Part shown: one piece after another, positions 4,347 to 41,477 of the stretch
Numbering within the stretch: the first letter of the stretch is position 1
How the letters are laid out: each line of letters opens with the position of its first letter
Assembly (NCBI GenBank): GCA_951813295.1
Contig: CATOTI010000002.1
Coordinates: 558,001 to 622,000 of the forward strand
Length of the DNA stretch: 64,000 bases
Reading direction: 5' to 3'
Source of the DNA: an uncultured Pseudomonadales bacterium
GTDB taxonomy: Bacteria > Pseudomonadota > Gammaproteobacteria > Pseudomonadales > Azotimanducaceae
Notes under the pieces: generated by a model
What the model was told of the DNA's origin: nothing
Databases searched by the model: none
The model's input: only the letters and a program-made list of their open reading frames with translations
Made by a program: the position numbers and the translations under genes

Positions 4347-5446
4347 CTACGGCCGGAATCGGTCGCTGTAGTTCTCGGGTCCACTCTCGGTGACGTCCGC
4401 CAACCAGTCGCCTTCGTAAGGCCAGGCCTCGGGATCGTCCGGCGAAGGACCTGCCAGAAGCGCGCCAATGGTCCGGCCGACGGAACCACTTCGAGCGACC
4501 AGGCCTGACGTCGAAACGTCCAGCTATCGGGGACGAGCCGATGGGCTTCCCTGAAGTGGCGAATCGCACCGTCGTGATCGCCGCTCCGTTCGAGATGCGA
4601 GGCTAGTTCGAAGTGAGCGTGTCCTAGAGCGGTCGACTGGCTACGCGGCCGGGATCGCTCGACAACCTCATCCGGCGTGAGCGCAAACCGGCTCTCCTCA
4701 CCGTTAGCGACCCAGTCCTTGAGCGCCGCGTGATACGGCTCCGCATCATTGGGAATCTGCGAAGCGGCAGCGAACATCCGGTGAAACCGTTCCGGCATCT
4801 GGCTCATGTCACCGCCGAGCGCGGGACGATCCGGGTTCGGCGGTGCAGGGGCGGCTTCGGCCGGTCGCACGATGGTGAAACTCTCGTCGATCCAGATCGA
4901 ACTCGGGATGTTGACCACCCCCAGCTTGTCGGCGAGCACGTGATGCGTATCGAGCAACGCCGGATGCGTCGGCTGCGCGGCCTCGATGAACGGTCGACAA
5001 CCGTCGGCGCCCAACGTGTCGAGTCCGACGGTCACGAGTTCGAATCCTTGTGGTGCCAGTTCTTCCCACAATGCCTGCCACACGGGCAGGTCGCCGGAGC
5101 AGCCTCAGTAGGGCGCCCAGGCGTACACGACGATTTTCTTGCCCTTCAGACTCGACAGCCGAAACGGTTGGCCGTCGAGGTCTTCCAGCACGACATCGGG
5201 TGCCTGTGCTGTGCTGAGCGCCTTGCCGTTGGGGCTCGCGGGACCCACCGCCATCAAGCCACTCGCTGCGTCGCGAACGATCGGCATGCCGATCTCGGTG
5301 GCGACCGACGTTACGTCGACGGTTTCACCAGGTTCTTCTTTCAAGGGGATGCAGAGTTCGCCGAGACAGGCGCCCTCCGGTTTCAATGCCCAACCCGTGG
5401 CGGCTTCGAACCGCTCACGGGAGACGTTCGGGGTGTCGGTAATCAT
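4347..5446 (-). CDS. Predicted selenoprotein: thioredoxin/ResA-like redoxin with in-frame UGA at the active site (WAPY-U-GC)
   Basis: About 367 residues when UGA at 5105-5107 is read as selenocysteine (residue 114). An N-terminal domain of ~80 residues precedes a redoxin fold: DVVLEDLDGQPFRLSSLKG, then WAPY-U-G-C, SGDLPVWQALWEEL, and the cis-Pro region NIPSSIWIDES. The C-terminal third has a TPR-like helix pair (AHFELASHLERSGDHDGAIR). The UGA sits where redoxins keep the first active-site Cys, and a hairpin follows it (5074-5090). ATG 5446 overlaps the permease stop as ATGA, so translation is probably coupled to the efflux pump. Near 4450 one base seems missing: after FWQ the homologous end continues in another frame as GPSPDDPEAWPYEGDW to a stop at 4347-4349. 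That shift may be an assembly error. Sec incorporation is inferred, not shown. Confidence 0.75.
5074..5090 (-). promoter_or_regulatory. Putative bacterial SECIS hairpin after the UGA at 5105-5107
   Basis: On the coding (minus) strand the bases 15-31 after the UGA form CCUGCC-CGUGU-GGCAGG, a perfect 6-bp stem with a 5-nt loop whose second base is G. Bacterial SECIS elements lie directly downstream of the UGA inside the reading frame, with the apical loop roughly 16-37 nt away and a G among the first two loop bases. All three conditions are met. SelB recognition is inference. Confidence 0.65.
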
Positions 5447-20603: not shown

Positions 20604-20785
20604 TGGGTTGTCTCCTGACGGGTCGCCGAACGGCGCCGGGCACATGACAACCTACCGATTTTCGGAGCCAAAATGTTGGTAGGGAAGATCCTCATCAGAG
20701 ATGCTATGACCGAGGAACGACCTCGCGTGCCTGTTTCGATACGGTGCATCCGCGACAACGGGCTATTCGAAGTAGAGCGTGAGCC

Positions 20786-21916
20786 GTGTGGACTGAGAAC
20801 ACCTTTGGGCGCCATCGACTCCAGCGGTTCGACTATGGCCAGGCCGACGAAACCTTCGATGAAGGCGTAGTCGCCGCACTCAGCAGGCATGGCTTCGCGT
20901 TGATCGAGAATGCCGTTGCACCATCACAATGCGACCGCACCGTCGAAGAGATGCAGCCCCATCTCGACGCAACGCCCCATGGACTGCACGGACTGGCTGG
21001 CACGAGACGCGTTGGCACACTGGTCGCGCGCTCACGCGCCAGCCACGCGCTGATCGAACATCCTGCGGTTCTCGCGATTGCTCGTGCCGTTCTCTCCGAG
21101 CAGAAGCTCGCGGGCGACGAGGTTTCGATCGGCGGTCGCCGAGGCCCGCGCGAGAAAGGCTTTCGATATCCGTTCCAACTGCACCTGACCCAGATCATCG
21201 ACGTCGGTCCGGGCGGCGGATCGGCCGAGTGACCCCACGCGCTCGGCCTCCACCGCGCGAACGGGATGTGGATCCACGACTTCCAGGAAAGCCGCCTGGA
21301 CCCGCAACTCGAAGTGATGTGGGCACTCACTGATTTCACGACCGAAAACGGCGCAACACACGTCGTACTCGGCAGCCACCGGGACGAACCCCGCGGCGGT
21401 CCGAGCGCTTACGGCGAACCAACGATCCAGGCGGAGATGACAAAAGGCAGCGTACTGATCTGGACCGGCTGGTCGGTGCACGGCGCGGGCGTCAACCGCA
21501 CGCCGACGCGGCGCATCGGCATGAACATCAACTACGCACTCGCGTTCCTCGCCCAGGAGGAAAACCAGCTCCTCGCGTGCCCGCCCCACCTGGCAAGGAA
21601 CCTTTCCGTGGATCTCCAACGTCTGATCGGCTATCGCCAACCCGCCGGCTCGCTCAACTACGTTGCCGAGTGTCAGGCACCGGCAGACTCGGTTCTCAAA
21701 GACGATTTCGATGTCCTGATTCCCGGTGCACACGGCCACCCGATGGACCCCGCGGTCGACGGACCATTGCTATCGAGATCCGAGATCGAGACCCGCATCG
21801 CCGACGCCGAAAGGCGCAAGCGGCAGGCGATTGCTGCTGATGATCTCGAGACGGCGTTGCGCTTGAAGAAGGAGATCAGCGTGCTCGAACGGCGGCCGAC
21901 TCGAACGAGCAAATAG
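20786..21916 (+). pseudogene. Phytanoyl-CoA dioxygenase (PhyH) family gene interrupted by in-frame UGA
   Basis: Two halves in the same frame are separated by TGA at 21230-21232. The first half has the N-terminal helices (ALSRHGFALIENAVAPSQC) and QLHLTQIIDVGPGGG. The second has LHRANGMWIHDF, VMWALTDFTTENGATHVVLG and the distal iron-binding His region VHGAGVNRTPTRRIGMNINY. The whole is ~376 codons, somewhat longer than usual PhyH proteins because of a C-terminal coiled stretch (DAERRKRQAIAADDLETALR). The HxD iron motif reads HRA. The family uses Fe(II), 2-oxoglutarate and O2. The TGA is probably a nonsense mutation, since other genes around it are decayed; no redox Cys is expected there. Confidence 0.65.
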
Positions 21917-38009: not shown

Positions 38010-38782
38010 GTCAGGCTCCACTCGGCGAGGCACTGATCGAGGACCGCGTTGAACTCGGCCGGTTTCTCGAAATAAGTCGAATGCCCGGCGCCTTCGACGA
38101 CCGTGGACCCCGCGCCGATCGCCTCGGCAACGCTCACGAGTAGCGCCGGCGGAAAGAGCGGATCGAGATCGCTCGCAAGCACGAACATCGGCACGCTGGC
38201 GCCCTTCACCTCATCGGCGGAGAAGTACGCCGAGCCATCGCTGATATTCGGTGCAGCCACGGTGTTGAAGGCCGAAATCTGGTTGTAAAGCACCGCTCGT
38301 TCCGGGAACGTTTCGGCGAACTCGGCGCTGATCGCCTGGTTTATGAGTCCGCCACCGGCCGCCAGACGTTCCGCCAACGTGCTCATGTTTTCGATGGTTT
38401 CCGGCGTCTCGACGGCGCCCGGGGTGTTGCCGAGTAGAACGCCCGTGACGCGGTCGCTGTGAATCACGCCGGTGCGCACCCCCGTCCAACCGCCCATCGA
38501 CTGGCAGACGATGGTCGCTCGATCGACACCCGCCGCGTCCATGATGGCGATCATGTCGGCGTCGAAATGGAGCGCATTCTGTTGCGACGCATCGCAAGGT
38601 GAGCGAGCGAACCCGCGATGATCGAACACGAGCACGCGGTGATCCTTCGCGACCACCGGCACCTGCTGCCACCAACTCGTCGCGTTGCCGCCTGCGCCGT
38701 GGGCAAAAACCACCCAGGGTCCCGCCTCGCCGTGCACTTCGTAGTAAAGATCGACACCGTCGCGTTCGGTGAAGGCCATCAT
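38006..38782 (-). CDS. Alpha/beta fold hydrolase
   Basis: 258 residues from ATG 38782 (or the adjacent ATG 38779), with GGGAG just upstream. The fold is classical: VVFAHGAGGNATSWWQQVPV (HG oxyanion turn), VLVFDHRGFARS, nucleophile elbow VCQSMGGWTG (Ser near residue 100), acid in LASDLDPLFPP and His in EGAGHSTYFEKP. No signal peptide. The DHRGFARS form is that of lactonase/3-oxoadipate enol-lactonase-like hydrolases. It diverges from the second redoxin gene across 61 bp; shared promoters are likely there. Confidence 0.87.
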   Translation of the reverse strand: MMAFTERDGVDLYYEVHGEAGPWVVFAHGAGGNATSWWQQVPVVAKDHRVLVFDHRGFARSPCDASQQNALHFDADMIAIMDAAGVDRATIVCQSMGGWTGVRTGVIHSDRVTGVLLGNTPGAVETPETIENMSTLAERLAAGGGLINQAISAEFAETFPERAVLYNQISAFNTVAAPNISDGSAYFSADEVKGASVPMFVLASDLDPLFPPALLVSVAEAIGAGSTVVEGAGHSTYFEKPAEFNAVLDQCLAEWSLT

Positions 38783-38843
38783 GATCTCCCAGGCGGTTAA
38801 GATCCGGCATCGTAAGGTGAAACCGAGAGTCAGGATCAAGCCC

Positions 38844-39452
38844 ATGCGTCTCGCCGCCGCCCTTCGCGCGTCTCTCATCGTGCTCTGCTTCACAGGCATC
38901 CGCGTCGACGCCGATGAACTCTACGCGAGGACCTGGGGGCCCGATGTCGGCACCGAACTCGTTGCGTTTGATCTGAGCGATCAGATGCGCGAGCAACGCA
39001 GTTTCGCCGATCTCGCTTCTGATCGTGGTCTGCTCATCGTTTTCGCCCGGTCGGGCGATTGGTGAAGCTACTGTCTGCGCCAGCTCGTCGAGCTCGGCAA
39101 ATGGCAACCACGCTTCGAACGCCTCGGCGTTCACGTCGCGGCCGTCACGACGGATCAACCCCGCACGGCAGTACGATTCACCGAACGATTCGGCCTCCGC
39201 TATCCCGTGCTCTACGACCGTGGCGCGAGGTTGGTCAATGCGCTTCGTATCCGCAATCGTGAACATCGGCGCTACGATCGCGCCTACGGGGTCCCGCACC
39301 CGGGGGTTCTTTACGTCGACGCGAGCGGTACTATCGCTCTCAAGTTCGCCGAGCGCGGATACAAAGCTCGGCCAAGCTTCGCCGAAATCCATGCCGGCGT
39401 AACCGAGTTCATCGAGGCCGGCGCTTCCACACCCCATCCATCGACAAGGTAG
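38844..39452 (+). CDS. Predicted selenoprotein: exported peroxiredoxin-like redoxin with UGA at the active site (GDW-U-SYC)
   Basis: 202 residues when UGA at 39063-39065 (codon 74) is read as selenocysteine. A signal peptide (MRLAAALRASLIVLCFTG, then DADE) suggests a periplasmic protein. The redoxin core reads LLIVFARSGDW-U-SYC, LRQLVELGKWQPRFERLGV, then VAAVTTDQPRTAVRF and YGVPHPGVLYVDASG with the cis-Pro region. Relatives have SADWCPYC here, so UGA replaces the first Cys and leaves a UxxC motif. Codons before and after the UGA are in one frame with no other break, and a hairpin lies 14-33 nt after it. The next gene, a Tat-exported aldo/keto reductase-like protein, starts 7 bp after the stop, so they are probably cotranscribed. 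Confidence 0.78.
39079..39098 (+). promoter_or_regulatory. Putative bacterial SECIS hairpin after the UGA at 39063-39065
   Basis: Bases 14-33 after the UGA read GCC-AGCUC-GUC-GAGCU-C-GGC: an 8-bp stem with one bulged C and a 3-nt loop starting with G, whose apex is at +22 to +24. Position, loop G and stem length fit bacterial SECIS rules. Function inferred. Confidence 0.65.
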
Positions 39453-39459
39453 GTCAAAC

Positions 39460-40512
39460 ATGCCTCAAGCGAAGAAATCGTTTTTTGGAACCAACCGTCG
39501 CGGTTTTCTGAACACACTGTCCATGGCGGCCGTCGGTGGCGCGACGCTGATCAAGACCGGTGACGTCCGCGCGGCGACACAGGATGCCCAGCAAGCCGGC
39601 GACGGCGTCTGGCCGAAGATGACCTACCGAACCCTCGGCCGCACGAATTTTCTCGCCAGTCGACTCGTCTACGGCGCCGGCGCGTCGTTGAGTCGTAAGC
39701 CGAACGACAAGTTGCTCGAGACCGCGCTCGAAGCGGGCGTCAACGTATTCGATGTCGGCACGAGCCGTTACTACGGCCAAGCCGAGCGCCATCTCGGACC
39801 GTTCGCCAAACGTCACCGTGACGACATCTTCCTGATCTCGAAGGGTATGACCTACATCGACATCGACGAGGATGCGACCGCGACCGTCGAGCAGGCCAAG
39901 CAAGCCGCGAAGACGTGGACGATGTTGCTCGACGAGAGCCTGGACCAACTCGGCATGGACCACGTCGACGCCTACTACCAGATGGGTGCGAGCAATCCAT
40001 CGCTCATCCAAGCCGACGAAATGAAGGCGGCTTATGACGCCGCCAAGGCCGCCGGCAAAGCCGACTACTTCGGCGTATCGACCCATCAGAACGCCGCCAA
40101 CGTCCTTTCCGCCATGATCGAAACGGGTTGGTACAGCCTCGCGATGCTCGCGATCACGCCGGCCGGTTGGTACGACTGGAACAATCGCGACATCCAGGCC
40201 GGCACGACCGAAATGAAATCGATCCGCCCGCTCCTCGACAAAGCGCGCGCCTCCGGCATCGGCCTCGTCGGCATGAAGGCCGGACGCCTCCTCGCCGGAC
40301 AGGGATTCCTCGGTCGCGGCAACCCCCGCGCCTTCGATGAGTTCTACGACGACAAGCTCCTGCGCGCGAACCTCTCGCACTTCCAGCGAAGCTATGCCTA
40401 CGTGCTCGAAAACGGTCTCGACGTCGTCAACGCCGACATCCAGAGCTACGGCATCCTGCGCGAGAACTTCGTGGCCGCCGCGAAATCGAGCGACGTCGCG
40501 GCGACGGCCTAG
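39460..40512 (+). CDS. Tat-exported aldo/keto reductase-like protein
   Basis: 350 residues. A twin-arginine signal is clear (NRRGFLNTLSMAAVGG), so the protein folds before export. The barrel resembles aldo/keto reductases: TYRTLGRTNFLASRLVYGAG, GVNVFDVGTSRYYGQAERHL (the FDT.. and Tyr of the catalytic set read VFDVGTSRYYG), DIFLISKG and LDQLGMDHVDAYYQMGASNP. Where active AKRs have Lys after DDIFL..K the Lys is kept (SKG); the usual catalytic His aligns with YQMG and is not visible. It may be a periplasmic reductase needing a tightly bound cofactor or an inactive homologue. Lies 7 bp after the selenoredoxin. Confidence 0.78.
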   Translation: MPQAKKSFFGTNRRGFLNTLSMAAVGGATLIKTGDVRAATQDAQQAGDGVWPKMTYRTLGRTNFLASRLVYGAGASLSRKPNDKLLETALEAGVNVFDVGTSRYYGQAERHLGPFAKRHRDDIFLISKGMTYIDIDEDATATVEQAKQAAKTWTMLLDESLDQLGMDHVDAYYQMGASNPSLIQADEMKAAYDAAKAAGKADYFGVSTHQNAANVLSAMIETGWYSLAMLAITPAGWYDWNNRDIQAGTTEMKSIRPLLDKARASGIGLVGMKAGRLLAGQGFLGRGNPRAFDEFYDDKLLRANLSHFQRSYAYVLENGLDVVNADIQSYGILRENFVAAAKSSDVAATA

Positions 40513-41477
40513 AGTTCGACTTTGGCGATGCCGAGCCCGGCCTCGCCGCCGATCGCATAGACGAGATAGATCCGGCCTTCTTCCTCGAAGATCGCCGGAT
40601 CGCGGAGCTGATTCACGACGCCGTAGGCGACGCTGCGAACACTCGGCTCGACGGGCGCGCCCGCACCTTCCCAAACCCGTTCCGGTCGGAGCACTTCCAC
40701 GGGCTCCGATTCCCGCCAGTTCGTCCAGTCGTCCGAGAGATCAATCGTCGAGAGCAGGATGCGCTCTGGCGCATCGCCGACCTGTGTCCAGAAGACGTGG
40801 GCGCGCTCAGCGCGCACCAGCACCGCGGCGTGGCGCATGTGCCGATTGAAGAGTAACGGGCCTTCTTCGAATCCGGACGTCGGCGTTGCCGCGCGGTAGA
40901 TGAGCCCGGGCATCGCCAGCCCGTACGTGCGTTCGTCGTGGACGAAGACCCGCATATAGGTGCGACCGAGGATCTCTTCTGCGGATTCGAATGTGATGCC
41001 GTCCGGCGATGTCGCGACCCGCGTCACCTGGCGACCGACGCCCTCGAGGCCGTGGTAGTACATGACGAGGCGCCGGTTCTTCTCGTCGACGTGGACGTCG
41101 GGCGAAGCGATATGCGGCGTCGTCATCTCGAGTTCGACCGAATGCAGGAGCTTCACGCCCGCGGCACGATTGCGCTCCTCCGCCGCTTCGACCTGTTGAC
41201 GTGTCGCCTGCAGCGTCTCCTTCGGGAAAGGTGTGTCCTCGAGTTGTAAAGATCCGGGCACGTGGATCTGCCACGGCCCGGCAAGATCATCAGCAAAAGC
41301 CAGTCGAATGTAGCGGCCCTTGTGATCGGCGAAGTAGAGGTAGTAACGACCTAGCGGATCGGGAACCCAATCCGGGACACGGATCAACGACGGCCCCTGG
41401 ATGTTCTCGCCGAGCGAAACGTGCGAGGAAGGATCAATGATCGGTCGATCGATCAATCTTTCGACGTGCATCCTCAT
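40509..41477 (-). CDS. Glycosyl hydrolase family 43-like five-bladed beta-propeller protein
   Basis: 322 residues without a signal peptide. Repeating blade-like strands include RVPDWVPDPLGRYYLYFADH, IRLAFADDLAGPWQIHVPG, IASPDVHVDEKNRRLVMYYH and LRDPAIFEEEGRIYLVYAIG. The R-D-P-A blade motif and the YYLYFADHKG motif resemble GH43/GH117-like proteins, but I cannot verify the three catalytic carboxylates. It overlaps the stop of the upstream convergent gene by 4 bp. It may act on a sugar or be a non-catalytic binding protein. Confidence 0.65.
   Translation of the reverse strand: MRMHVERLIDRPIIDPSSHVSLGENIQGPSLIRVPDWVPDPLGRYYLYFADHKGRYIRLAFADDLAGPWQIHVPGSLQLEDTPFPKETLQATRQQVEAAEERNRAAGVKLLHSVELEMTTPHIASPDVHVDEKNRRLVMYYHGLEGVGRQVTRVATSPDGITFESAEEILGRTYMRVFVHDERTYGLAMPGLIYRAATPTSGFEEGPLLFNRHMRHAAVLVRAERAHVFWTQVGDAPERILLSTIDLSDDWTNWRESEPVEVLRPERVWEGAGAPVEPSVRSVAYGVVNQLRDPAIFEEEGRIYLVYAIGGEAGLGIAKVEL

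Follow-up and report, generated by a model that had tools for sequence, protein, structure and literature searches.

The window, by which we mean the whole 64,000-nucleotide stretch of DNA analysed here, contains on its forward strand a redoxin gene of 203 codons (202 residues and a TAG stop). The sole in-frame TGA of this gene is codon 74, which reads FARSGDW-U-SYC (U, selenocysteine (Sec)). A preliminary description of this DNA had the frame, the codon and the motif right, and no other stop interrupts the frame. The product scores 65.4 bits against the Pfam AhpC-TSA domain, above the curated cut-off of 26, and also matches the Redoxin family (1.9e-10). Coding log-odds are about equal before (0.22) and after (0.23) the TGA. 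Judging by eye from the look of its N-terminus, the protein is probably exported. An aldo/keto reductase gene starts 7 bases past the redoxin stop and may be co-transcribed with it; a search of 38600–40700 for a promoter-like site found none. By tblastn of the fetched loci, neither the aldo/keto reductase nor the hydrolase upstream accompanies a redoxin anywhere but at the window's own locus, the flank at many loci being only about 1.5–3 kb. The features of the locus, and two further UGA-containing genes of the window, are collected in Table 1.

Table 1. Features of the window, in window coordinates
Feature	Position	Strand	Remarks
Redoxin (AhpC/TSA family), 202 aa, very probably Sec-containing	38844..39452	+	Pfam PF00578 5.8e-18; relatives' profile, which includes this sequence itself, 212 bits
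Probable N-terminal export signal (MRLAAALRASLIVLCFTGIRVDA)	38844..38912	+	judged by eye only
Sec codon TGA in motif W-U-S-Y-C	39063..39065	+	same column TGA in 43/44 places
Bacterial SECIS hairpin GCCAGCUC-GUC-GAGCU(C)GGC	39079..39098	+	loop GUC at 39087-39089
Aldo/keto reductase downstream of redoxin	39460..40512	+	Pfam PF00248 3.4e-14
Other redoxin, motif WAPY-U-GC	4853..5341	-	TGA at 5105-5107; Pfam AhpC-TSA
PhyH-family (phytanoyl-CoA dioxygenase) gene	20780..21790	+	in-frame TGA at 21230-21232

Structural modelling places codon 74 directly before a helix. In an AlphaFold2 (AF2) domain model with a pLDDT of 94.3, Sec (residue 53 of 170, modelled as Cys) precedes helix 54–72, and the active sites of thioredoxin-fold proteins usually lie just before such a helix. 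BCP and AhpE peroxiredoxins rank first in a Foldseek search, with a ResA at rank 11, and the best sequence match in the PDB is likewise a BCP. Sequence alignment sets Sec on the first Cys of the ResA WCxxC motif. Alignment to BCP (2cx3) sets it on a Ser and sets the Cys of the redoxin family on the BCP Cys, which we take to be peroxidatic, so that the BCP SxxC becomes UxxC. The BCP residues ‘KR’ are ‘HP’ in the redoxin family, and this Pro is invariant (P132). Since Sec corresponds to the first ResA Cys and to the BCP Ser, and ‘KR’ has become ‘HP’, we favor a selenol/thiol-disulfide oxidoreductase over a peroxidase as the probable function. A Sec-decoded protein that is nonetheless a true, peroxiredoxin-like peroxidase is the less likely of the two, but a serious contender: AhpC-TSA is its best Pfam family, and peroxiredoxins head the structural ranking. 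Against it, besides the alignments, PMC1088965 describes a Prx-like family in which a thioredoxin-like UXXC replaces TXXU. If the protein acts as an oxidoreductase, the Sec selenolate, placed directly before the active-site helix within U-S-Y-C, would attack a substrate disulfide (or oxidised thiol), and the second Cys of the motif would resolve the Se–S bond. The fold is a computed prediction; the substrate, like the choice of oxidoreductase over peroxidase chemistry, is inferred.

The window redoxin belongs to a selenoprotein group that is already described. It shares with the Prx-like thiol:disulfide oxidoreductases (PF00578, UxxC) the domain, the UxxC motif, the existence of Sec/Cys pairs and a bacterial SECIS, and it has the features expected of Prx-like proteins: UxxC (as WUSYC), a conserved UGA, and further homologues that carry Cys in the Sec column. 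PMC2398784 lists Prx-like 1 (pfam00578, UxxC), with 225 Sec forms and 2,740 Cys homologues in its GOS table. The Prx-like thiol:disulfide oxidoreductase appears in Table 1 of PMC13188914 and, with an additional UGC form, among the proteins listed in PMC9312934. Because the family is in print (PMC2398784, PMC13188914), the gene is another case of the group, to which it adds a further member. By domain and motif alone, the two redoxins of the window would fit the Prx-like UxxC subfamily (published exemplar WP_010940744) and the UGC subfamily, respectively. The gene at 38844 is mildly unusual in its U-S-Y-C motif, its long branch and its genome, which has at least eight UGA redoxin-type genes. 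A Ser replaces the nearly invariant Pro after Sec: 41 of the 43 UGA places (see below) read U-P-x-C, and the window copy shares its Ser only with L046 (WUSFC).

Other families resemble the redoxin less closely or in part. The ResA/TlpA thiol-disulfide oxidoreductases have a related fold, but the redoxin carries Sec in place of their Cys and scores 40 bits with the ResA model, against a curated cut-off of 170. BCP/PrxQ and AhpE supply the best sequence match (BCP) and the best structural matches in the PDB, but differ in the SxxC and ‘KR’ positions discussed above. A TxxU active site is given for peroxiredoxins in PMC2398784 and PMC13188914. A peroxiredoxin proper has T/SxxC or TxxU and a catalytic Arg; the redoxin differs from this in its UxxC and in the ‘HP’ aligned to the BCP ‘KR’. 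Similarity to the SelL-related redox protein (NF040769) is detectable (1.2e-10), but the score of 41.3 bits against a cut-off of 120, and a UxxC rather than UxxU motif, exclude SelL membership. The UGC-containing Prx-like selenoproteins form a separate subfamily, whose motif is that of the other window redoxin (WAPYUGC); the family profile of the redoxin at 38844 reaches that stretch at E 0.11, and its own motif, U-S-Y-C rather than UGC, rules out this identity.

That other redoxin has 31 homologous places in 16 of the 58 genomes searched, 22 with an in-frame TGA and nine with none, and the UGC motif was read in all 10 fetched loci, its own included. By sequence it appears to match the known UGC-containing Prx-like selenoproteins. 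The preliminary description had stressed two independent redoxins with UGA at the same functional position in one window, and had thought this hard to explain by chance. Both redoxins are real, but the other carries the shorter UGC motif and not UxxC, and the argument from their number is weaker than that from conservation, given what is found in a third gene of the window (PhyH, below).

Conservation of the UGA was examined in 58 genomes, comprising the window's own and others of the same genus, family and order. At a threshold of E ≤ 1e-10 we found 44 homologous places in 35 of these genomes (own included). Read in frame, 43 of the 44 have TGA at the W-U-x-x-C motif, and at this threshold none of the 44 places in the 58 genomes is a Cys form. 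The lone exception (L045/L167, G031:C49:36066-36548) is a decayed copy that reads TGG where the others have the Sec codon and whose frame is interrupted by TAA and TAG. Its genome, G031, keeps another UGA redoxin (L059). A class sample of 369 genomes gave TGA at all six places in the window's own genome and 70 places outside it, 69 without an in-frame stop and one with TAA. Of these 70, 29 were fetched and 25 located, four being missed by the motif search; all 25 located homologues have Cys. Named homologues with Cys came from a second collection; 22 of these are close (Halioglobus, Acidobacteria and others). Motifs such as RSADWCPYC are found in them, WCP[FY]C being part of the search pattern. 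A contig scan of this collection with the alignment yielded 52 loci; since it back-translates Cys and seeks WCP[FY]CxxQ[LF]V, its reach was limited to Cys forms that carry this pattern. The same scan with the single redoxin protein as query found no relative. Among the 82 loci read in this step, the motif was not located in 5, and one of these five (L116) is a Sec copy from the genome of the window itself.

Phylogenetic analysis places the window redoxin within an all-Sec set of 34 rows (SH-aLRT 96). The alignment (A1) holds 42 of the 43 UGA rows, the truncated L061 being left out, and the tree combines 42 Sec with 47 Cys rows; of the second collection's 52 Cys loci, 30 were omitted from it (score <130, including L099, in which the motif was mislocated). 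The Sec/Cys label needs six changes across the whole tree, and so either the two forms were exchanged on more than one occasion or the tree resolves them imperfectly. In this tree of Sec and Cys rows the end branch of the window redoxin is long (1.09). At each of the 13 invariant columns of the alignment, in which it is itself included, it has the conserved residue.

A long branch is what might be expected if a Cys codon had become TGA by sequencing error or recent nonsense mutation, leaving a Cys-type redoxin or a pseudogene. The PhyH gene in the same window also lends this explanation some weight. Its in-frame TGA is shared by none of the 16 other genomes matched, one of which has TAA in its match, and the column is Met, His or Leu in the five relatives read. 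These residues rule out the PhyH frame as a new selenoprotein and mark its TGA as a private nonsense mutation or a sequence error. Broken frames or sequence errors thus occur in the window's assembly, where an in-frame TGA is not proof in itself; it is conservation across genomes, and not the open frame, that carries the conclusion for the redoxin. There, the same TGA recurs at nearly every homologous place with no Cys form among them, coding composition is maintained past it, and the protein, itself a row of the alignment, has the residues of all the invariant columns, in contrast to the decayed copy in G031. Since the TGA is common to genomes that were assembled separately, its correction to TGC or TGT is very unlikely. 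Error or nonsense mutation is, on this evidence, a most improbable account of the gene.

The window's assembly (5.97 Mb, three contigs, estimated contamination 7.4%) encodes the components that define a Sec-decoding organism: SelA, SelB, SelD and tRNA-Sec. SelA (497 bits) adjoins SelB (394 bits), and the tRNA-Sec has the anticodon UCA (68 bits). The SelA model passes at a second place with 34 bits and the tRNA-Sec model barely does so (47.4 against 47 bits); in each case the higher-scoring place was taken as the gene. SelD, in a Cys form, is the C-terminal part (G000:C1:321939-322841; L162, L166) of a 749-codon frame whose N-terminal part looks, by eye, NADH-dehydrogenase-like; an Ndh-SelD arrangement is described in PMC2398784. 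All four components lie on contig C1, and the window is on contig C2. Across the 58 genomes, SelA occurs in 41: each of the 35 that carry the redoxin has it, as do 6 of the 23 that lack the redoxin, and the redoxin is present in none of the 17 SelA-less genomes (Fisher 5e-10, a measure of co-occurrence and not of independent trials, because the genomes are related). Every one of the 37 sampled genomes of the window's family-level lineage has SelA. So does the genome (G039) that carries the one Sec redoxin from another family of the order.

Downstream of the UGA, the mRNA can form the hairpin that the preliminary description had drawn, with 8 bp, one bulged C and the loop GUC, 14–33 nt after the UGA. 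The bSECIS model in PMC13188914 (figure legend) asks for a loop of 3–9 nt, a stem of 4–16 bp and a UGA-loop spacing of 16–37 nt, with G in the first two loop positions and an MFE ≤ −7.5. The window hairpin lies within these limits (loop GUC, 5 bp plus 3 bp past the bulge, spacing 21), and the 51-nt stretch containing it folds with −14.1 kcal/mol. The hairpins of 40 of 42 tested genes likewise lie within all the limits, L050 and L062 missing that for the MFE. A stem inside positions 15–21/25–31 (counted after the UGA), with G in the first two loop positions, is possible in 42 of 42 genes. The window fold alone proves nothing because its stability does not exceed that of dinucleotide shuffles (z −0.20; 73 of 200 shuffles fold as well). 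Fold energies measured against synonymous shuffles fail to tell Sec and Cys genes apart (mean z −0.85 and −1.08 for Sec, −0.62 and −0.61 for Cys; p about 0.2). Both single-sequence stability and synonymous-shuffle energies were accordingly dropped as support for a SECIS, being non-discriminating. The energies, the model counts, the close-Cys pair comparison, the covariation and the RNAalifold analysis use 42 of the 43 UGA rows (L063, truncated at its upstream end, is out).

Pairs 18–28 and 19–27 (counted after the UGA) are standard in all 43 Sec genes, where they occur as G-C, A-U or G-U and as C-G or U-A. The changes between these types are largely synonymous, in Gln, Leu and Glu codons. Among the close Cys homologues, 18–28 pairs in 13 of 22 and 19–27 in 9 of 22 (Fisher 1.8e-5 and 3.8e-8 against 42/42), a contrast that is partly due to the differing amino acids of the Cys proteins and is smaller once these are held equal. 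A comparison confined to genes that encode Q[LF]V[QE]L starts from all 43 UGA rows, as does the pair count above, and takes in 39/43 Sec, 10/22 close Cys and 27/76 located Cys genes; in it, both pairs are kept in 39/39 Sec genes (38 counting Watson-Crick pairs only). The corresponding figures are 6 of 10 for the close Cys genes (4 Watson-Crick only) and 20 of 27 for all located Cys genes (18 Watson-Crick only); Fisher tests give 0.001 against either set.

Covariation in the six-pair helix points the same way. Over 38 distinct rows the Sec genes score 0.348, where the shuffles average 0.184 (0/500), with shuffle controls that ignore relatedness, which can inflate the score; the Cys genes score 0.128 against 0.143. 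Measures that count pairs or pair types in this helix do not exceed their shuffles. Tree-independent comparisons of pairs all agree with pairing (about 4/4 and 2/2), numbers too few for significance. RNAalifold recovers the same helix, and its outer pair 15–31 is a standard one in 40 of 42 rows, with five types represented. Alone in the set, the window copy shows a C-C mismatch at pair 16–30, where a bulge replaces the pair.

From the conserved UGA, the Sec machinery and the conserved pairing, all computed here, we infer that Sec is actually incorporated, and we regard the gene as very probably a genuine selenoprotein, as the preliminary description had proposed. A reassigned or suppressor tRNA that would put Trp, Cys or some other standard amino acid at the UGA, in place of Sec, is scarcely credible, since nothing speaks for it beyond a frame formally open under other codes, and against it stand the Cys, not Trp, at that column in homologues read outside the redoxin family, the tRNA-Sec(UCA) with its full machinery, and the hairpin pairing that is stricter in UGA than in Cys genes. 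We are thus highly confident in a thioredoxin-fold redoxin with Sec at codon 74. Its UGA would be decoded by SelB and tRNA-Sec(UCA), directed by the SECIS hairpin downstream.

The same genome has at least eight UGA redoxin-type genes, six WU..C and two UGC. In addition to the two in the window, such genes lie on G000:C2 at 3306649 (L049), 3613401 (L050), 3439868 (L051), 2647345 (L052), 1236172 (L164) and 659631 (L165). Of these, L051 and L052 read WUPPC and have long C-terminal extensions. Downstream hairpins were tested for four of the seven other UGA genes (L049–L052): three lie within all model constraints, and L050 misses the energy limit. PMC5029168 defines selenoprotein-rich organisms by six genes and gives the principal groups as Deltaproteobacteria, Clostridia and Synergistetes; by that definition, the count in this genome would qualify. 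It is possible, and we put this forward tentatively, that the family-level lineage as a whole is selenoprotein-rich beyond the groups named there, that its Sec-redoxins have multiplied (the searches with the window redoxin's family turned up no Cys copy in this genome), and that the window copy is a fast-evolving U-S-Y-C paralogue.

Taking the TGA as a stop would cut the product of this gene at residue 73. The function of the SECIS hairpin is visible in paired, largely synonymous codon changes, kept more strictly in UGA than in Cys genes. Beyond its own locus, the redoxin points to a lineage with several selenium-dependent redox enzymes.
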